Positions 30,989 through 41,022 of a stretch of DNA of 64,000 nucleotides are shown here, in pieces. The notes under the pieces are model-generated. The model searched no databases. It had not been told where the DNA came from and saw nothing but the letters and a program-made list of their open reading frames with translations. Source of the DNA: Proluteimonas flavola (GTDB lineage Bacteria; Pseudomonadota; Gammaproteobacteria; Xanthomonadales; Xanthomonadaceae); contig NZ_JAIWPU010000013.1 of the NCBI RefSeq assembly GCF_021191705.1, positions 62,001-126,000 on the forward strand, written 5' to 3'. Numbering within the stretch: the stretch's first letter is position 1; each line of letters opens with the position of its first letter. Position numbers and translations under genes: made by a program.

Positions 30989-32185
30989 TCAGCCCAGCGT
31001 GTCGCCGGGCACGCGGATCGCGCCTTCCATCAGCACGCGCGCCGAGCGCGACATGATCGCCTTGGAAACGGTCCACTGGCCGTCGACCTCCACCGCTTCG
31101 GCACCGACGCGCAAGATGCCTGAAGGATGCCCGAAGCGCACCGACGTGCGCGCGCCGCCGCCCGCCGCGAGATTCACCAGCGTGCCGGGGATCGCCGCCG
31201 CGGTGCCGATCGCGACCGCCGCCGTGCCCATCATCGCGTGGTGCAGCTTGCCCATGGACAGCGCGCGGACCAGCAGATCGATGTCGCCGGCCGCGATGGC
31301 CTTGCCGCTCGACACCACGTGATCGCGCGGCGGCGCGACGAACGCGACCTTCGGTGTGTGCTGGCGCTTCGATGCCTCCGACACATCCTTGATCAACCCC
31401 ATGCGCACCGCGCCATGCGCGCGGATCGTCTCGAACATCGCGAGCGCCTTCGCGTCGCCGTTGATCGCGTCCTGCAGCTCGGTGCCGGTGTATCCGATCG
31501 AGGCGGCGTCGACGAAGATCGTCGGGATGCCGGCATCGATCATCGTCGCGCGCAACGTGCCGACGCCCGGCACTTCGAGATCGTCGACGAGGAGGCCGGT
31601 CGGGAACATCGCACCGCCGCCGTCGCCCTCGCCTTCATCGGCGGGATCGACGAATTCCAGCACGATCTCCGCCGCAGGGAAGGCCACGCCGTCGAGTTCG
31701 AAATCGCCGGTTTCCTGCACCTGCCCGTCCGCCACCGGCACGTGCACGATGATGGTCTTGCCGATGTTCGCCTGCCACACGCGCACCGCGACGGTGCCGT
31801 CGTGCGGAATGCGCGCCGGGTCGATGAAACCGTTGGCGATCGCGAACGGACCGACCGCCGTACTGAGGTTGCCGCAGTTGCCGCTCCAGTCGACGAACGC
31901 GCTGTCGATCGACACCTGGCCGTAGAGATAGTCCACATCGTGATCCGGCACCGACGCGGGTCCGATGATCACGCACTTGCTGGTCGACGAAGTCGCGCCG
32001 CCCATGCCGTCGGTGTGCTTGGCATAGAGATCGGGCGACCCGATGACGCGCAGCATCAGCGCATCGCGGGCGGGCCCCGGCGTCTGCGTGGCAGCAGGCA
32101 GGTCTTCGAGGCGGAAGAACACGCCTTTCGAGGTACCGCCGCGCATGTAGGTGGCGGGGATGCGGAGTTGGGGGGCGTGGGTCAT
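30989..32185 (-). CDS. prpF: 2-methylaconitate cis-trans isomerase
   Basis: Isomerase of the PrpF family (diaminopimelate-epimerase-like fold), working with AcnD to turn 2-methylcitrate into 2-methyl-cis-aconitate in propionate breakdown. It has 398 residues. Markers are IPATYMRGGTSKGVFF, TDGMGGATSSTSKC, FVDWSGNCGNLSTAVG (cysteine-containing active-site region) and SVRFGHPSGILRVG. The ATG at 32185 leads directly into the conserved N-terminus. It lies downstream of acnD with a 97-bp gap. Confidence 0.96.
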   Translation of the reverse strand: MTHAPQLRIPATYMRGGTSKGVFFRLEDLPAATQTPGPARDALMLRVIGSPDLYAKHTDGMGGATSSTSKCVIIGPASVPDHDVDYLYGQVSIDSAFVDWSGNCGNLSTAVGPFAIANGFIDPARIPHDGTVAVRVWQANIGKTIIVHVPVADGQVQETGDFELDGVAFPAAEIVLEFVDPADEGEGDGGGAMFPTGLLVDDLEVPGVGTLRATMIDAGIPTIFVDAASIGYTGTELQDAINGDAKALAMFETIRAHGAVRMGLIKDVSEASKRQHTPKVAFVAPPRDHVVSSGKAIAAGDIDLLVRALSMGKLHHAMMGTAAVAIGTAAAIPGTLVNLAAGGGARTSVRFGHPSGILRVGAEAVEVDGQWTVSKAIMSRSARVLMEGAIRVPGDTLG

Positions 32186-32228
32186 CGGGAGTCGCCTATT
32201 CGTGATGTCTTTCGTCTGGAACTGCTTT

Positions 32229-32278
32229 GCCCCCCTCTCCCCCGGCGGGCACGTAGTCCCGCAATGGGGGGAGGGGCT
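32229..32278. repeat. Inverted repeat in the acnD-prpF gap
   Basis: A C-run block (GCCCCCCTCTCCCCC, from 32229) faces a G-run block (GGGGGGAGGGGC, to about 32277). Pairing is imperfect but could form a stem inside the acnD-prpF mRNA. Confidence 0.4.
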
Positions 32279-32282
32279 CAGA

Positions 32283-34880
32283 TCACGCGGCTTTTGACGA
32301 CTCCAGAAAATCCTGCGCAAACCGCTGCAGCACACCACCCGCTTCGTAGATCGAGACTTCTTCCGCAGTATCGAGACGGCAGATCACCGGCACCGACAGC
32401 TGCGTGCCGTCATGGCGGTGGATCACCAGCGTGAGCATCGCGCGCGGGGTACGGTCGCCGGTGACGTCGAAGGTTTCGGTGCCGTCGATGCCGAGCGTCA
32501 GGCGGGTCACGCCGGGCTGGAACTCCAGCGGCAGCACGCCCATGCCGATCAGGTTGGTGCGGTGGATGCGCTCGAAGCCCTCGGCGACGATCGCTTCCAC
32601 GCCCGCCAGACGCACGCCCTTGGCCGCCCAGTCGCGCGAGCTGCCCTGGCCGTAGTCGGCGCCGGCGATGATCACCAGCGGCTGCTTGCGGTCCATGTAG
32701 GTCTCGATCGCCTCCCACATGCGGACCACCGCGCCTTCGGGCTCGATGCGCGCCAGCGAGCCCTGCCGCACCGTGCCGTCGACGATCGCCATCTCGTTGA
32801 CGAGCTTCGGATTGGCGAACGTGGCGCGCTGCGCGGTCAGGTGGTCGCCGCGATGCGTCGCGTAGGAATTGAAGTCCTCTTCCGGCACGCCCATCTTCGC
32901 GAGGTACTCGCCGGCCGCGCTGTCGGCCATGATCGCGTTCGACGGCGAAAGATGATCGGTGGTGATGTTGTCGCCGAGCACCGCGAGCGGACGCATGCCG
33001 GTCAGCGTGCGCGCGCCGGCCAGCGCACCTTCCCAGTACGGCGGACGCCGGATGTAGGTGCTCATCTCGCGCCAGTCGTACAGCGGCGCGACGCGCTCGC
33101 CGGTGTCGATGTGCAGCTTGAACATCGGGCCATAGACGGCGCGGAACTGTTCCGGCTTGACACTGGCTTTGACCACGGCGTCGATTTCCTCATCGGACGG
33201 CCAGAGATCCTTGAGCGTCACCGCGTTGCCGTCGTGGTCGATGCCGAGCACGTCCTTCTCGATGTCGAAGCGCACGGTGCCGGCGATCGCATAGGCGATC
33301 ACCAGCGGCGGCGACGCGAGGAAGGCCTGCTTGGCGTAAGGATGGATGCGGCCGTCGAAATTGCGGTTGCCGCTGAGCACGGCGGTCGCGTACAGATCGC
33401 GGTCGATGATCTCCTGCTGGATCAATGGGTCCAGCGCGCCGCTCATGCCATTGCAGGTAGTGCAGGCGAAGGCGACGATGCCGAAACCGAGCTGCTCGAG
33501 ATCCGGCAGCAGGCCGCTTTCTTCGAGATACAGCTGCACAGCCTTGGACCCCGGCGCGAGCGAACTTTTGACCCACGGCTTGCGCGTCAGGCCGCGCGCG
33601 TTCGCGTTGCGGGCCAGCAGCGCGGCGGCGATGACGTTGCGCGGGTTCGAGGTGTTCGTGCAGCTGGTGATCGCAGCGATGATCACCGCGCCGTCGGGCA
33701 TGGTGCCGTCGGTCGGCATCTCCCACGCGCCGGCAATGCCGCTGGCGGCGAGATCGCTGGTTGCCACACGCTTGTGCGGGTTCGACGGGCCGGCCATGTT
33801 GCGCACCACGCTCGACAGGTCGAAATGCAGCGTGCGCACGTACTCTGCGCTGGCGAGCGAATCGGCCCACAGGCCGGCGGCCTTGGCATAGGTCTCGACC
33901 AGCGCGACCTGGATGTCCTCGCGGCCGGTCAGGCGCAGATAGTCGAGGGTGTTGTCGTCGATGAAGAACATCGCGGCGGTCGCGCCGTACTCCGGCGCCA
34001 TGTTGGAGATCGTCGCGCGATCGCCGACCGACAGCGCAGCCGCGCCCGGGCCGCGGAATTCCAGATACGCGCCGACGACCTTCGACTTGCGCAGGAATTC
34101 GGTGAGCGCCAGCACGACGTCGGTCGCGGTGATGCCCGGACCGGGACGCCCCGCGAGTTCGACGCCGACGATCTCCGGCGTGCGCATCCACGAGGCGCGG
34201 CCGAGCATGACGTTCTCGGCTTCGAGTCCGCCGACGCCGATCGCGATCACGCCCAGCGCATCGACGTGCGGCGTGTGACTGTCAGTCCCGACGCAGGTGT
34301 CCGGGAACGCGACGCCGTCCTGGACGTAAACCACCGGCGACATCTTCTCCAGATTGATCTGGTGCATGATCCCGTTGCCCGGCGGAATCACCTCGACGTT
34401 GTGGAACGCGAGTTTGGTCCAGTCGATGAAGTGGAAACGGTCGGCATTGCGACGGTCTTCGATCGTGCGGTTCTTCGCGAAGGCATCCGGGTCATAGCCG
34501 CCGCATTCCACCGCCAGCGAGTGGTCGACGATCAGTTGCACCGGCACGACCGGATTGACCTTTGCCGGGTCGCCGCCCTGATCGGCGATCGCATCGCGCA
34601 GACCCGCGAGATCGACCAGCGCGGTCTGGCCGAGGATGTCGTGACAGACCACGCGCGCCGGATACCACGGGAAGTCGATGTCCTGGCGCAGTTCGATCAA
34701 CTGCCGCAGCGCGTCGTCGAGCTGCGCGGGATCGCAGCGCCGCACCAGATTCTCGGCGTGCACGCGTGCGGTGTAGGACATGCGATCAAACGCGCCGGGC
34801 ACCAGCGCGTCGACGGCCGCGCGCGCGTCGAACCAGTCGAGTTGCGTGCCGGGAAGGGGTTTGCGGTGCTGGCTGTTCAT
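32283..34880 (-). CDS. acnD: Fe/S-dependent 2-methylcitrate dehydratase
   Basis: Aconitase-family enzyme of 865 residues that dehydrates 2-methylcitrate and replaces the iron-free PrpD when PrpF is present. The 4Fe-4S cysteines are seen in AITSCTNTSNPRNVI and ACTTCNGMSGAL. Substrate- and domain-specific parts include LIVDHSLAVECGG, GIMHQINLEKMSPVV, VGTDSHTPHVDALG and the swivel-domain GADYGQGSSRDWAAKG. The adjacency of prpF decides AcnD over AcnA. It starts at 34880; the upstream gap to prpC holds a repeat. Confidence 0.95.
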   Translation of the reverse strand: MNSQHRKPLPGTQLDWFDARAAVDALVPGAFDRMSYTARVHAENLVRRCDPAQLDDALRQLIELRQDIDFPWYPARVVCHDILGQTALVDLAGLRDAIADQGGDPAKVNPVVPVQLIVDHSLAVECGGYDPDAFAKNRTIEDRRNADRFHFIDWTKLAFHNVEVIPPGNGIMHQINLEKMSPVVYVQDGVAFPDTCVGTDSHTPHVDALGVIAIGVGGLEAENVMLGRASWMRTPEIVGVELAGRPGPGITATDVVLALTEFLRKSKVVGAYLEFRGPGAAALSVGDRATISNMAPEYGATAAMFFIDDNTLDYLRLTGREDIQVALVETYAKAAGLWADSLASAEYVRTLHFDLSSVVRNMAGPSNPHKRVATSDLAASGIAGAWEMPTDGTMPDGAVIIAAITSCTNTSNPRNVIAAALLARNANARGLTRKPWVKSSLAPGSKAVQLYLEESGLLPDLEQLGFGIVAFACTTCNGMSGALDPLIQQEIIDRDLYATAVLSGNRNFDGRIHPYAKQAFLASPPLVIAYAIAGTVRFDIEKDVLGIDHDGNAVTLKDLWPSDEEIDAVVKASVKPEQFRAVYGPMFKLHIDTGERVAPLYDWREMSTYIRRPPYWEGALAGARTLTGMRPLAVLGDNITTDHLSPSNAIMADSAAGEYLAKMGVPEEDFNSYATHRGDHLTAQRATFANPKLVNEMAIVDGTVRQGSLARIEPEGAVVRMWEAIETYMDRKQPLVIIAGADYGQGSSRDWAAKGVRLAGVEAIVAEGFERIHRTNLIGMGVLPLEFQPGVTRLTLGIDGTETFDVTGDRTPRAMLTLVIHRHDGTQLSVPVICRLDTAEEVSIYEAGGVLQRFAQDFLESSKAA

Positions 34881-35036: not shown

Positions 35037-36194
35037 TTACTTCCGCTCGTCGATCGGCACGAACGCCTGGTCCTCCGGACCGGTGTAGTTCGCGCTCGGG
35101 CGGATGATCTTGCCGTCGATGCGCTGCTCGATGACGTGCGCGCTCCAGCCGGCGGTGCGGGCGATGACGAACAGCGGGGTGAACATCGCAGTCGGCACGC
35201 CCATCATGTGGTAGCTCACCGCGCTGAACCAGTCGAGGTTCGGGAACATCTTCTTGATGTCCCACATCACCGTCTCCAGGCGCTCGGCGATGTCGTACAT
35301 CTTGCGGCTGCCGACCTCGTCGGACAGTTCGCGCGACACGTCCTTGATGACCTCGTTGCGCGGATCGCTGACGGTGTAGACCGGATGGCCGAAGCCGATG
35401 ATCACTTCCTTCTTCTCGACGCGCGCCCTGATGTCGGCTTCCGCCTCGTCGGGGGTGTCGTAGCGCTTCTGCACTTCGAACGCGACTTCGTTCGCGCCGC
35501 CGTGCTTGGGGCCACGCAGCGCGCCGATGCCACCGGTGATGCACGAATACATATCGCTGCCGGTGCCGGCGATGACGCGGCTGGCGAAGGTCGACGCGTT
35601 GAACTCGTGCTCGGCGTAGAGGATCAGCGAAGTGTGCATCGCCTTGACCCAGGACTCGCGCGGCTCGAAGCCGTGCAGCAGGTGCAGGAAGTGTCCGCCG
35701 ATCGAATCGTCATCGGTCTCGACGTCGATCGCGCGGCCGTTGTGGCTCCAGTGGTACCAGTACAGCAGCATCGAACCCAGGCAGGCCATCAGCTTGTCGG
35801 CGATGTCGCGCGCGCCGGGATGGTTGTGGTCGTCCTTCTCCGGCTGCACGCAGCCGAGCACCGACACGCCGGTGCGCATGACATCCATCGGATGCGCCGA
35901 CGGCGGCAGTTCCTCGAGCGCGGCCTTGACCGCCGCCGGGATGCCGCGCAGGGACTTCAGCTTGGCCTTGTAGCCGCGCAGTTCCGCTTCGGTCGGCAGC
36001 TTGCCGTGGACCAGCAGATAGGCGATCTCCTCGAACTCGCTCGTGCGTGCGAGATCGAGGATGTCGTAGCCGCGGTAATGCAGGTCGTTGCCGCTGCGGC
36101 CGACGGTGCACAGCGCGGTGTTGCCGGCGGCCGTGCCGCTCAGCGCGACGGACTTCTTCGGCTTGAAGCCGGGGGCGGTGGTGGTCTCGCTCAT
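35037..36194 (-). CDS. prpC: 2-methylcitrate synthase
   Basis: Condenses propionyl-CoA with oxaloacetate to 2-methylcitrate, first step of the cycle, cytoplasmic, 385 residues. Citrate-synthase catalytic residues are visible: His in [11 protein letters not shown], His in [12 protein letters not shown] and Asp in [11 protein letters not shown]. The start of the conserved fold, [16 protein letters not shown], and RGYDILDLA fit PrpC and not GltA. It is upstream of acnD and downstream of prpB, in one direction, with repeat-bearing gaps on both sides. Confidence 0.96.
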
Positions 36195-36423: not shown

Positions 36424-37308
36424 TCACTTCTGAGATGCGAACAGCGCGTCCAGCCGCTGTTCGAAGGCGTGATAGCCGATGCGCTCGTAGAGTTCCTCGC
36501 GGGTCTGCATCGTGTCGACGACGTTCTGCTGATGACCGTCGCGGCGCACCGCGGCGTAGACGTTCTCGGCCGCCTTATTCGCCGCGCGGAACGCCGACAG
36601 CGGGAACAGCTGGATCGCGACGCCCGCCGACGCCAGTTCGTCGCGGGTGAACAGCGGCGTGGCACCGAACTCGGTGATGTTGGCGAGCACCGGCACCTTC
36701 ACCGCATCGACGAAACGGCGGTAGGTGTCGAGGTCGTAGGCGGCCTCGGCGAAGATGCCGTCGGCGCCGGCCTCGACGCAGGCGATGGCGCGTTCGATCG
36801 CGGCGTCGACGCCGTCGACCTGGATCGCATCGGTGCGCGCGATCAGGAAGAAATCGGGGTCGGTCTTCGCATCGGCCGCGGCCTTGACCCGGTCGACCAT
36901 CTCGCCCTGCGACACGATCTCCTTGCCGGGGCGATGGCCGCAGCGCTTGGCGCCGACCTGGTCTTCGATATGGCACGCCGCCGCGCCGGCCTTGATCAGC
37001 GACTTCACGGTGCGCTCGATGTTGAACGCGCTCGCGCCGAAGCCGGTGTCGATGTCGACCAGCAGCGGCAGATCGCAGACGTCTGTGATGCGACGCACGT
37101 CGATCAGCACGTCCTCGAGCGTGTTGATGCCCAGGTCCGGCAGACCCAGCGAACCCGCGGCGACGCCACCGCCCGACAGATAGATCGCCTGGAAACCGGC
37201 GCGCTTGGCCAGCAGCGCGTGGTTGGCGTTGATCGCGCCGATCACCTGCAGCGGCGATTCGGCGGCGAGCGCGGCGCGGAATTTCGCGCCTGCGGAAAGC
37301 GTGGTCAT
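36424..37308 (-). CDS. prpB: Methylisocitrate lyase
   Basis: Cleaves 2-methylisocitrate into pyruvate and succinate, last step of the cycle, cytoplasmic, 294 residues. PEP mutase/isocitrate-lyase family marks are [28 protein letters not shown], and the catalytic-cysteine motif [13 protein letters not shown] (KKCGH type). IARTDA and [11 protein letters not shown] follow. The ATG at 37308 gives [14 protein letters not shown]. It diverges from the HTH-citrate synthase regulator; the operator-like repeat between them lies about 60-90 bp upstream of this start. Confidence 0.96.
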
Positions 37309-37369
37309 GGGTGCGACTCCGGAGCTGCGGTGTACCGCGATGGCGTGCAATCTGGCACCATCCGAATGG

Positions 37370-37396
37370 TTGATCAATCTTGATCGAATCAATCAA
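37370..37396. promoter_or_regulatory. Operator-like repeat between prpB and its divergent regulator
   Basis: A 27-bp AT-rich stretch in otherwise GC-rich DNA. It begins TTGATCAATC and ends GAATCAATCAA, so the outer TTGAT/ATCAA ends are inverted and TTGATC occurs twice directly. It lies in the 104-bp gap between the prpB start and the chosen regulator start, a fitting site for binding by the HTH protein. Confidence 0.5.
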
Positions 37397-37412: not shown

Positions 37413-38630
37413 GTGAATGCGAACGATGGCGATCTGATGTCCGCAGCCGAGGCCTGCGCCGCGCTCGGCATCAGTACCGCGACGCTCTACGCCTATGTCA
37501 GCCGCGGCCTGCTGGAGTCGCGCCCCGGCGCCGACCATCGCAGCCGCGTCTACCTGCGCCAGGACGTCGAACGCCTGGCCCAGCGCAAGCGCGCAGGCCG
37601 TGGCGCGGCCCGCGGTGCGGCGCAGAGCCTCGACCGCGGCCTGCCGGTGATGGAAACGCGGATCTCGCTGATCCGGCCCGACAGCCCGTATTACCGCGGG
37701 CGTTCCGCGGTCGCGATGGTCCGCAGCGGCGCCACGCTCGAAGACACCGCGCGATTGCTGTGGGACTGCGGCGATGCCGATCCCTTCGACGCCGCGACCG
37801 CCGACTGGCCCGCGCGCGTCGCCGCGATTGCCGGCGATGCCACCCTGCCACCAATCGAACGCGCGATGGCCGCGATCCCGCTGCTCGCGCCGGACCTGCG
37901 GCATTCGCTGAGCGCCGCGCCCGCGGCCAAGCGCGGCGTCGCGGCGACGCTGCTGCGCCAGAACGCGGCGCTGCTGGTCGCCGGCACACCCGATGCGCGC
38001 CCGGTGCATGTGTTGCTCGCCGATGCCTGGCGTCCCGGTGACGCGGCATTCGCCGATCTGGTGCGCGCGGCGCTGGTGCTGTGCGCGGACCACGAACTCA
38101 ACGTGTCGGCCTTCGCCGCGCGCGTGGTCGCGTCCACCGGCGCGCATCTGCACGCGACCGTCTGCGCGGGCCTCGCGGCGCTGTCGGGGCCACGCCATGG
38201 CGGCGCGACTGCGCGCGCGCATGCGCTGATCCGCGAGGCCTGCGATGCGCCCTCGCCCGCTGCCTTCGTCGCCGAGCGCTGGCAACGCGGCGACGATCTG
38301 CCCGGCTTCCACCACGTGCTGTATCCCGACGGCGATCCGCGCGCCGCCGAAGTGCTGGCGATGTTGCGCGCACGCCATGCGGGCGATGCACGCATGCAGC
38401 AGGTCGAAGCGGTGCTCCACTCCGCGGCCGAGACCAGCGGCCGCCATCCGAACATCGACGGCATGCTCGCGGCGATCTGTTTCGTGCACGGCCTGCCGGC
38501 GACACCGGCGCTGTGCATGTTCGCCGCCGGCCGGCTCGCCGGCTGGCTGGCGCATGCACTGGAGCAACAGGAGCTCGGCAGGCTGATCCGCCCGCGCGCG
38601 CATTACACCGGCGTCGCGCCGGCCGAGTAA
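37413..38630 (+). CDS. MerR-type HTH fused to citrate-synthase-like domain; likely prp regulator
   Basis: About 405 residues in two parts. Residues 8-60 are a MerR/HTH_17-type DNA-binding domain (SAAEACAALGISTATLYAYV, then SRVYLRQDVERLAQRKR). The rest is a citrate/2-methylcitrate synthase domain that keeps the catalytic set: His227 in CADHELNVSAF, His262 in SGPRHGGAT and Asp349 in HPNIDGMLA. It may sense 2-methylcitrate-cycle substrates and control prpBC-acnD-prpF, or still have enzyme activity; both are inference. Start choice: TTG at 37380 would put the operator-like repeat inside the gene; GTG at 37413 or ATG at 37437 are more likely, and I use 37413. It is divergent from prpB and convergent with prpE. 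Confidence 0.85.
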   Translation: MNANDGDLMSAAEACAALGISTATLYAYVSRGLLESRPGADHRSRVYLRQDVERLAQRKRAGRGAARGAAQSLDRGLPVMETRISLIRPDSPYYRGRSAVAMVRSGATLEDTARLLWDCGDADPFDAATADWPARVAAIAGDATLPPIERAMAAIPLLAPDLRHSLSAAPAAKRGVAATLLRQNAALLVAGTPDARPVHVLLADAWRPGDAAFADLVRAALVLCADHELNVSAFAARVVASTGAHLHATVCAGLAALSGPRHGGATARAHALIREACDAPSPAAFVAERWQRGDDLPGFHHVLYPDGDPRAAEVLAMLRARHAGDARMQQVEAVLHSAAETSGRHPNIDGMLAAICFVHGLPATPALCMFAAGRLAGWLAHALEQQELGRLIRPRAHYTGVAPAE

Positions 38631-38647
38631 GCACGCATTTTTTGTGT

Positions 38648-38706
38648 GAGCGCCCTTGGGCGCGATGGGCTTCAACGGGCAAGCCTCATCGCGCCCAAGG
38701 GCGCTC
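38648..38706. repeat. REP-like palindrome (GAGCGCCCTTGGGCGCGATG arms)
   Basis: Perfect 20-bp arms at 38648-38667 and 38687-38706 with a 19-base centre, starting 17 bases after the regulator stop. It shares the GCGCTCCCAC end with the other REP-like copies. Together with the next copy it fills the 304-bp gap between the convergent regulator and prpE; the DNA between the two copies shows nothing else. Confidence 0.75.
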
Positions 38707-38841
38707 CCACGTCAGACTGCGGATGCTCGGCCTGCGTGCACTTTAGGCACCCGTCGCACTTCCTCCAGACAGTCGCGCGTGGGCATATCCGTCCGCGCAC
38801 GCATTCCACGCCCGCCGCGCCTGCGGGATAACAGGAGACTC

Positions 38842-38907
38842 GTGGGAGCGCGCTTGCGCGCGATGAGGCGTTGCCGGGAAAGCCCTCGCGCGCGAGCGCG
38901 CTCCCAC
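38842..38907. repeat. REP-like palindrome (GTGGGAGCGCGCT family), second copy
   Basis: Perfect 13-bp arms at 38842-38854 and 38895-38907, nearly the same as the copy at 4848-4916. Just after it, CTCCCACAATTG is repeated twice in tandem (38901-38924), suggesting a duplication at the element's edge. It is 11 bases from the end of prpE. Confidence 0.72.
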
Positions 38908-38934
38908 AATTGCTCCCACAATTGCTGCGGCGGC

Positions 38935-40836
38935 TCAGCCCGCGTCGGCGCCCCGCGCCAGCACGCGGCGCACTTCCTCCAGCGCATTCGGATCGTCGAG
39001 CGTCGACAGATCGCCCGGATCACGCGATTCCGCCAGCGCCTGCAGCGAGCGCCGCAGCAGCTTGCCCGAGCGCGTCTTCGGCAACGCATTGACCACGTAG
39101 ACCCGCGCCGGCCGCGCGACGGCACCGAGCTGATCGGCAACGGTGCGCATCATCTCGCCGGCGGTCGCGTGCTGCGCGTCCGCGTCGCTCGACGCCTGCT
39201 TGAGCGTCGCGAACACGATCGGCACCTGGCCCTTCAGTGCGTCGGCGACGCCGATCACCGCGGCCTCGGCGACCGCAGGATGGCTGGACACCGATTCCTC
39301 GATCTCGCGCGTGCCCAGGCGATGGCCGGCGACGTTGATGACATCGTCGGTGCGGCCGAGGATGAAGGTGTAGCCGTCCTCGTCCTGGATCGCCCAGTCC
39401 AGCGAGCTGTAGAGCAGTTCCTTGAAATGCGAGAAGTAGCTCGACAGGAACCGCGCGTCGTCGTTCCACACCGTGGTCATGCAGCCGGGCGGCAGCGGCG
39501 GCTGGATCACCAGCACGCCCTTGGTGCCCGGCGGCACGCGTTCGCCGGTGGCCTCGTCGATCACGCGCAGGTCGTAGCCCGGCGTCGGCAGGCCCGGCGA
39601 ACCGAACTTCACCGGCTTGAGTTCGACGCCGGGCATCAGCGCCAGCACCGGCCAGCCGGTTTCGGTCTGCCAGTAGTTGTCGATGATCGTCGTGCCGCCG
39701 AGGCCGGCGCTGATCCAGCTCGCGGTGGGTTCGTCGAGCGGTTCCCCGGCGAGGAACAGGTATTCGAGTTTCGACAGGTCGTAGCGCTTGAGGAACGCCG
39801 CGTCCTGCTTCTTCAGCACGCGGATCGCGGTCGGCGAGGAGAACATCGTGCGCACGCCATAGTCGGCGCAGATCTTCCACCAGATGCCACCATCGGGACT
39901 CGTCGGCAGACCCTCGTAGAGGATCACCGTCGCACCGGCGATCAGCGGGCCGTAGACGTTGTAGGAATGCCCGACCGCCCAGCCCACGTCCGACGTGGTG
40001 AACATCACCTGCCCGGGCCGGATGTCGTAGATCGACCACATCGACAGCGCCATCGCGACCGCATAACCGCCGACATCGCGCTGCACGCCCTTGGGTGTGC
40101 CGGTGGTGCCGGAGGTGTAGAGCAGATAGCTGGGTTCGTTGCTTTCGAGCCATTCGACCGGCACGTCGGTGCCGGCGTGCTGCGCGCGGAGCGTCGCGTA
40201 ATCGACATCGCGGCCTTCGACGCGCGCGTAGCCGGGATCGAGTCCGCGATCGACGATCAGCACCTGCGACGGTGGAGACTTCGCTTCCGCGCATGCGGCG
40301 TCGATCAGCGGCTTGTACGGAATGACCTTGCCGCCGCGGCTGCCGGCGTCGGCGGCGATCAGCAGCGCAGGCTTGGCGTCATCGATGCGCAGCGCGAGGT
40401 TGTGCGCGGCGAAACCGCCGAAGACCACCGAGTGCACCGCGCCGATGCGCGCGCAGGCCAGCATCGCGAATGCGGCCTCGGCCATGTTCGGCATGTAGAT
40501 GACGACGCGCTCGCCGCGGCCGACGCCGAGCGCCTTCAGCACGGCCGCGAAATCGTTGACCTCGCGATACAGCTGCGCGTAGGTGATCTCGCGCGTCTCG
40601 TTGGTTTCCGTGGAGATCGCGACGAGTGCGAGCTGGTCGCCACGCGCGTCGAGATGCCGGTCGACGGCGTTGAAACACAGATTGGTCTCGCCACCGACGA
40701 ACCACTTGCGGAACGGCGGATTCGAATAGTCGAGGATCCGATCCGGCACCTTGTGCCAGTGGATCGCCTGCGCCTGCTCGCCCCAGAACCCTTCGGGGTC
40801 TTCGATGGAGCGGCGGTGGAAGTCCTGGTAAAGCAT
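38935..40836 (-). CDS. prpE: Propionyl-CoA synthetase
   Basis: AMP-forming acyl-CoA synthetase activating propionate to propionyl-CoA, feeding PrpC. It has 633 residues. The ATP/AMP motif is YLLYTSGTTGTPKGVQRD; later motifs are DNYWQTETGWPV and ILGRTDDVINVAGHRLGTREIE, and the acetylation-site lysine is in PKTRSGKLLRR. The N-terminus MLYQDFHRRSIEDPEGFW is of the PrpE/Acs type; the setting in the prp locus favours propionate over acetate. The start is at 40836. It is separated from upstream mdh by a terminator, so it has its own promoter between 40840 and 40930. Confidence 0.92.
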   Translation of the reverse strand: MLYQDFHRRSIEDPEGFWGEQAQAIHWHKVPDRILDYSNPPFRKWFVGGETNLCFNAVDRHLDARGDQLALVAISTETNETREITYAQLYREVNDFAAVLKALGVGRGERVVIYMPNMAEAAFAMLACARIGAVHSVVFGGFAAHNLALRIDDAKPALLIAADAGSRGGKVIPYKPLIDAACAEAKSPPSQVLIVDRGLDPGYARVEGRDVDYATLRAQHAGTDVPVEWLESNEPSYLLYTSGTTGTPKGVQRDVGGYAVAMALSMWSIYDIRPGQVMFTTSDVGWAVGHSYNVYGPLIAGATVILYEGLPTSPDGGIWWKICADYGVRTMFSSPTAIRVLKKQDAAFLKRYDLSKLEYLFLAGEPLDEPTASWISAGLGGTTIIDNYWQTETGWPVLALMPGVELKPVKFGSPGLPTPGYDLRVIDEATGERVPPGTKGVLVIQPPLPPGCMTTVWNDDARFLSSYFSHFKELLYSSLDWAIQDEDGYTFILGRTDDVINVAGHRLGTREIEESVSSHPAVAEAAVIGVADALKGQVPIVFATLKQASSDADAQHATAGEMMRTVADQLGAVARPARVYVVNALPKTRSGKLLRRSLQALAESRDPGDLSTLDDPNALEEVRRVLARGADAG

Positions 40837-40930
40837 GCGGGGTTCCCCCTGGCATCCGGCTTGGATCCCCGAGGCTAGACCCGACACCGCCTCCCGCGCG
40901 CTACGACGTTGGTCTACGCCCCCGCAGACA

Positions 40931-40963
40931 TGCAGAAGGCCGGACATTGCCCGGCCTTCTGCA
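40931..40963 (-). terminator. Terminator downstream of mdh
   Basis: Perfect 13-bp arms TGCAGAAGGCCGG (40931-40943) and CCGGCCTTCTGCA (40951-40963) with a seven-base loop, about 60 bases past the mdh stop. No long T-run, but stem strength and position fit. Confidence 0.68.
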
Positions 40964-41022
40964 TCGAAAACCACTGGATCGGCACGATCAACGCATCGGC
41001 GTCGACCGTGCGCGTCACGCAC

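Follow-up and report, generated by a model that had tools for sequence, protein, structure and literature searches.

A helix-turn-helix protein with a citrate-synthase domain as a probable local regulator of the methylcitrate-cycle genes in part of the Xanthomonadaceae

Sequence comparison suggests that a gene named citrate synthase in databases, found here in a 64,000-nucleotide stretch of Proluteimonas flavola DNA (hereafter the window), is most likely a genetic switch, an enzyme fold turned sensor. We propose that this gene, which joins a helix-turn-helix (HTH) to a citrate-synthase domain, probably encodes an autoregulated one-component regulator, with a candidate operator in the promoter that it shares with prpB (Table 1) and with its citrate-synthase domain serving as a carboxylate sensor.

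Table 1. Features of the fusion locus, in window positions
Feature	Position	Strand	Remarks
HTH-citrate-synthase fusion gene	37413..38630	+	HTH, residues 8-59; citrate-synthase domain, residues 75-395
Proposed operator, TTGATCAATCTTGAT-N6-RATCAA, 27 bp	37370..37396	+	Conserved with the gene across family genomes
Inferred prpB -35, TTGATC	37372..37377	-	Inside the operator, 17 bp from the inferred -10
Inferred prpB -10, CAGATT	37349..37354	-	TGC before it (extended -10); conserved block in 94/94 distinct gaps
prpB, methylisocitrate lyase	36424..37308	-	Divergent from the fusion gene; TIGR02317, 413.4 bits (cut-off 354.4)
prpC, 2-methylcitrate synthase	35037..36194	-	NF009006, 724.5 bits (cut-off 550)
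acnD	32283..34880	-	TIGR02333, 1754.5 bits (cut-off 1419.85)
prpF	30989..32338	-	TIGR02334, 726 bits (cut-off 440.55); real start probably around residue 56 of the ORF
prpE	38935..41022	-	Convergent with the fusion gene; TIGR02316, 1156.7 bits (cut-off 827.4); real start probably around residue 63 of the ORF

The fusion gene and its prp neighbourhood

The first-pass annotation had described an HTH joined to a citrate-synthase domain and a position divergent from prpBC-acnD-prpF, and both descriptions hold. The gene is an intact ORF of 405 aa with a GTG start, whose product exceeds the Pfam cut-offs for HTH_17 at residues 8-59 (33.2 bits vs. 27), for MerR_1 at residues 9-57 (23.1 bits vs. 21.6) and for Citrate_synt (PF00285) at residues 75-395 (profile positions 3-357, 195.6 bits vs. 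27, E = 1.6e-57); MerR PF00376 stays below its cut-off (20.9 bits vs. 28.2). None of the NCBIfam cut-offs for citrate or methylcitrate synthases is reached, the best score being that of NF009005/PRK12350 (146.1 bits vs. 332), with NF009006 at 118.9 vs. 550, and PrpR (TIGR02329) is absent among the 21 families that match the protein in this search. An AlphaFold model (pLDDT 78.8, pTM 0.77, pLDDT falling under 50 at residues 65-94 and over the C-terminal 16) has Pseudomonas aeruginosa PrpC as its best structural match (6s6f, Z 25.8 over 307 residues, rmsd 3.4), tied with the rows that follow it in the match list.

Among the matches listed, the closest relatives come from Luteimonas and Lysobacteraceae, and database records call relatives “citrate synthase family protein” or similar. 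We compared 94 distinct prp-linked Xanthomonadaceae fusions, the window's protein included. Their common build rules out a chance fusion or a pseudogene, and the retention of eight inspected active-site residues in 94/94 rules out a chance ORF. The HTH is among the best-conserved parts of the protein: residues 24-32, TLYAYVSRG, are invariant in all 94, and each of them is kept in 37-41 of 41 distant fusions described below. We infer that this stretch is the recognition helix, and its near-invariance fits a fixed DNA site.

On the opposite strand, prpB starts at 37308 and is followed by prpC, acnD and prpF. In 110/110 loci among the matches listed, which yield 94 distinct proteins, the best match to prpB runs divergently from the fusion gene; these loci are 30 from the family scan and the best 80 of 228 relatives in genome contigs, with overlapping species. 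A 31st family genome with the fusion, G104, was left out of this count; there the gene is split over two contigs, and the coordinates give the same arrangement. Of the 149 sampled family genomes, 146 have a prpB that scores over the cut-off. One of these, G029, has a second prpB besides its usual cluster (L138, G029:C18:160165-161016), with neither a prpC nor a fusion match in the 10 kb around it. In the window, two long GC-rich palindromic units that look REP-like by eye lie between the fusion gene and prpE (38640-38925).

A conserved site in the shared promoter, and the distribution of PrpR

The gap between prpB and the fusion gene measures 104 bases and holds a 27-bp site that ends 16 bases before the fusion gene. 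The core of this site is present in 94/94 distinct prpB gaps and its full form is exact in 84 of them, while most of the flanking columns vary. When up to two mismatches are allowed, the site occurs in 31 of the 149 sampled family genomes, exactly the 31 that carry the fusion gene (26 with the exact site, five with two mismatches), and is absent from all 118 family genomes that do not; a reversed control pattern gave no match over the 149. The Fisher value for this association is 1e-32, which overstates independence because of shared ancestry: counts over related genomes are not independent events. Each of the 32 sites is found on the strand of the fusion gene, 3-229 bases upstream of the match to it. 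In the P. flavola genome the site in Table 1 is the sole match at up to three mismatches, as it is in the window, where 100 shuffles gave none. A regulator of many genes finds no support at this motif, with one operator per genome; G087 has two, both in the same, unusually long prpB gap (G087:C1:2516822-2517066).

On the prpB strand, a conserved block, TGN-CA(G/C)ATT, stands 17 bp from TTGATC in 94/94 gaps when the pattern tolerates small changes. A strict sigma-70 scan of the gap called no promoter; we read the block as a putative extended -10 and TTGATC as the putative -35 of prpB, embedded in the operator. Since the operator overlaps this inferred -35 and also ends so close to the start of the fusion gene, one bound protein could control both genes.

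We next consider PrpR, the sigma-54 regulator, which is over its cut-off in 16 of the 149 family genomes, none of which carries the fusion (Fisher value 0.025, for genomes that share ancestry); the P. flavola genome has no PrpR over the cut-off. Both states occur within a single genus, g29, where G029 has the fusion and G071, G098, G124 and G145 have PrpR, which in G098 is the divergent neighbour of prpB. In the accessible text of PMC12153269, the PrpR of Xanthomonas citri is a repressor at the prpB promoter, encoded upstream of prpB, that recognizes GTTGCAA-N2-TTGCAAC and whose binding is unaltered by 2-methylcitrate.

Neither the fusion nor PrpR was found in 102 of the 149 genomes, and the prp operon can thus do without either. 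In four fusion-less relatives, two from the same genus, the gene directly upstream of prpB is prpE (L122 and L124, by NCBIfam) or a ligase of the Pfam build of prpE (L123 and L133), so that the space between this gene and prpB lacks the fusion gene. Five further fusion-less regions have in this place a SUFU gene, a DUF4189 gene, a malate dehydrogenase, a peptidase and a gene without a Pfam match. No replacement regulator stands directly upstream of prpB in the nine regions tested, out of 18 sampled ones that lack both fusion and PrpR.

The wider family and the proposed mechanism

Fusions of this build are also found outside Xanthomonadaceae. Of 398 genomes sampled across the phylum, 48 contain a match to the fusion (49 rows at E <= 1e-40, every one reaching into the HTH), and 278 plasmid records show some match, 86 of them covering at least 80% of the protein; many of the weaker plasmid matches will be plain citrate synthases. 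From these we took 41 distant loci, eight among the plasmid matches listed (60 of 278) and 33 of the 45 non-family phylum rows.

The divergent partner in the distant loci is most often a citrate synthase (21 loci; 19 assigned by clustering with PrpC and two by Pfam) or a CoA-transferase (seven loci; two by Pfam, the rest by clustering or record annotation). The two partner citrate synthases compared with NCBIfam models both pass the PRK12350 cut-off. Two loci have a partner resembling 2-hydroxyacid dehydrogenases (L195, below the equivalog cut-offs, and L200, assigned by eye from its start) and two a MipA protein (one by Pfam, one by clustering). The partner is prpB in one locus and acnD-prpF in another (L180, with acnD rather than prpB as the divergent gene); a methyltransferase, a cation efflux protein, an MFS protein, an HMGL-like protein and a TctC protein occur once each, and L040 and L203 have no divergent partner. 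The TctC protein, at L202, is a tripartite tricarboxylate transporter receptor.

A strict core of the site, TCAATNTTGA-N6..9-ATCRA, is present at 33 of the 41 distant loci in the stretch that starts 160 bases upstream of the fusion, compared with two matches in their remaining 427 kb and none in 200 shuffle sets. It accompanies 20 of the 21 citrate synthases, all seven CoA-transferases and both prp types, as well as the methyltransferase, MFS, HMGL-like and TctC partners; the HMGL-like partner is that of the Deinococcus locus, in which the core spacer is one base shorter. The strict core was found with neither of the two 2-hydroxyacid dehydrogenases, neither of the two MipA proteins, not with the cation efflux protein and in neither locus that has no partner. 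Of the eight members that miss the strict core, L195, L200 and L208 have, by eye, a core with a change, and nothing like it was seen at L040, L189, L201, L203 and L204. L201 and L204, both divergent from a MipA-type outer-membrane protein, form a subgroup in which His262 and Asp349 are lost (in L201 also His301) along with the motif, perhaps one with a different specificity.

In a tree of 71 rows, the partner enzymes, PrpC and GltA fall into one clade (100/100) and the prp-linked fusions group together (98/100), with the partner types scattered; the deeper forks among fusions are weak and the tool issued a long-branch warning. A recent duplicate of prpC is not favoured as the origin of the fusion, since PrpC, GltA and 19 partner enzymes stand in a separate clade at 100/100, under the same warning. 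It is somewhat more likely than not that the fusions form a widespread family of one-component regulators, spread over many Pseudomonadota and Deinococcus and labelled as citrate synthase, in which the citrate-synthase fold, closing its domains on ligand, would act as an allosteric sensor and which would recognize a nearly fixed DNA site largely whatever gene is controlled.

Citrate synthases form dimers, which close when oxaloacetate binds. We consider it likely that the fusion is a local one-component transcription regulator of prpBC-acnD-prpF and of itself, in which a dimer, expected from the fold, would bring the HTH domains together at the 27-bp operator so that the two of them read the inverted repeat TTGAT-N7-ATCAA. 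The citrate-synthase domain would have been retained as a sensor of a carboxylate of the methylcitrate cycle, most likely 2-methylcitrate or oxaloacetate. The open-to-closed movement on ligand would shift the spacing of the HTHs and thereby change DNA binding, and ligand would release the repression of both genes. 2-Methylcitrate, which would be the product of such a fold, is the inducer of Salmonella PrpR, as cited in the accessible text of PMC12153269; oxaloacetate is the other candidate ligand.

The sign of this regulation is our guess. Alternatively, the protein might be an activator that, bound beside the -35, recruits polymerase at prpB, taking the place of the activator role of enterobacterial PrpR. 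An activator would fit an operator centred immediately upstream of the inferred -35, and also the weakness of the inferred -10, CAGATT; however, in the distant members the motif starts 11-67 bases ahead of the codon that aligns with residue 1, and a position near the regulator's own start, there as in P. flavola, suits a repressor of both genes. The X. citri PrpR, its gene likewise upstream of prpB, is itself described as a repressor (PMC12153269, accessible text). We therefore consider an activator rather unlikely, and retain repression as the working model.

Enzyme status of the domain and comparison with known systems

We aligned the 94 Xanthomonadaceae and 41 distant fusions with 19 partner citrate synthases, PrpC and the C-terminal part of GltA, whose row, here and in the tree, lacks about the first 120 residues. 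The first-pass annotation had listed His227, His262 and Asp349 as the catalytic residues. Its numbering is right, but in the pig-enzyme numbering we take the triad to be His262/His301/Asp349, and His227, with Arg310, Arg374 and Arg393, to be an oxaloacetate binder; all four of the histidines and aspartate are present. These residues and Phe370 are kept in 94/94 prp-linked fusions. Among the 41 distant fusions, Arg310, Arg374 and Arg393 are kept in every one, including those with lost catalytic residues, His227 in 40, Phe370 in 39, and His262, His301 and Asp349 in 38 each. The exceptions are L037 (227), L188 and L189 (301), L201 (262, 301, 349 and 370), L204 (262, 349 and 370) and L202 (262 and 349). 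In L202, whose fusion gene runs from about 4317, His262 is replaced by I and Asp349 by E, and the motif is retained along with the three arginines. Among the partner citrate synthases, Glu replaces the catalytic Asp in 19/19 aligned (L034, L035, L182 and 16 other loci).

Two stretches that we take to be basic CoA contacts in citrate synthases, position 305 and the residues before Asp349, differ in the fusions. Position 305, four after His301, is Pro in 93/94 prp-linked and 35/41 distant fusions, and R or K in 20 of 21 compared citrate synthases. The exception among the latter is the PrpC of P. flavola, with Thr, so that Pro305 alone is no proof of lost CoA binding. The 14 residues before Asp349 hold on average 0.94 K/R in the prp-linked and 1.12 in the distant fusions, as against 3.48 in the enzymes. 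This loss of basic residues hints at a ligand of the oxaloacetate or methylcitrate type, and the retained carboxylate-binding residues likewise suggest that the domain senses oxaloacetate or 2-methylcitrate.

PutA exerts both enzyme activity and transcription control for proline, and the fusion could similarly combine citrate or 2-methylcitrate synthase activity with the control of transcription. The invariance of the inspected catalytic and substrate residues in 94/94 prp-linked members, which may be more than a simple carboxylate sensor needs, and the structural match to PrpC (307 residues at Z 25.8) would be in agreement with such a dual role. It is nevertheless improbable in view of Pro305 in 93/94 fusions vs. 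R/K in 20/21 enzymes (Thr in the P. flavola PrpC), of the drop in K/R before Asp349 from 3.48 to 0.94, of the lack of any NCBIfam citrate-synthase cut-off reached, and of a protein shorter than PrpC before residue 215. Moreover, the operon already has prpC, and gltA, on another contig (NF004126, 733 bits vs. a cut-off of 505), makes two more citrate synthases encoded in the genome. The locus numbers of citB and citC in Caulobacter are consecutive, and E. coli gltA is complemented by CitB and not by CitC (PMC7083601); the pair resembles our citrate-synthase/fusion pairs, and CitC would be a possible family member, its HTH being a supposition.

A plain additional citrate synthase whose N-terminal HTH has no relevance, next to a site conserved for another factor or as core promoter, would suit the label “citrate synthase family protein” or similar in the records but is highly improbable, as site and gene occur together in 31/31 genomes and are both absent in 118/118 although prpB is over its cut-off in 146/149, the motif tracks the fusion gene across unrelated partners, and few parts of the protein are as conserved as the HTH. 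Of the earlier suggestion of a regulator with an enzyme-like sensor, or of a bifunctional enzyme-regulator, the regulatory half thus finds support by comparison (prpB linkage in 110/110 loci, a site only with the gene, no overlap with PrpR, and a motif tracking the protein in 33/41 distant loci), whereas propionyl-CoA sensing and the bifunctional option are weakened by the loss of basic residues at the presumed CoA-contact positions.

Among the open-licence papers listed, we found no description of an HTH-citrate-synthase regulator; in the accessible part of PMC12542777, “citrate synthase family protein” appears in a table row only. If the proposed regulator is real, it would explain how the propionyl-CoA/methylcitrate branch can be controlled without PrpR in part of the Xanthomonadaceae (31/149 sampled genomes), and a protein that many records list as an enzyme would get a new name. 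With a candidate operator whose bases are specified one by one, the idea is directly testable.

Like the fusion, PrpR (TIGR02329) is a local regulator of the same operon, divergent from prpB in G098, but it is an unrelated protein, with another site in X. citri, and never occurs with the fusion in the 149 genomes. PrpC and other citrate synthases (PF00285) share with the fusion the fold, the active-site His and Asp and the three oxaloacetate Arg, whereas the fusion lies outside the clade of PrpC, GltA and the PRK12350 partners, has an added HTH, has lost basic residues at the presumed CoA-contact positions and scores below all NCBIfam cut-offs. One-component regulators of the MerR/HTH_17 type have an N-terminal HTH of the same type with a small-molecule-type domain behind it; in the fusion the effector domain has a citrate-synthase fold, and the putative site is TTGAT-N7-ATCAA with an extra half-site. 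MocR/GabR, BirA, NadR and PutA are enzyme-fold regulators in which a joined DNA-binding domain serves to control their own pathway; their enzyme folds are different, and to our knowledge none of them uses citrate synthase. If our proposal is true, citrate synthase, with its known open/closed movement, would join this short list of enzyme folds made into DNA-binding sensors.
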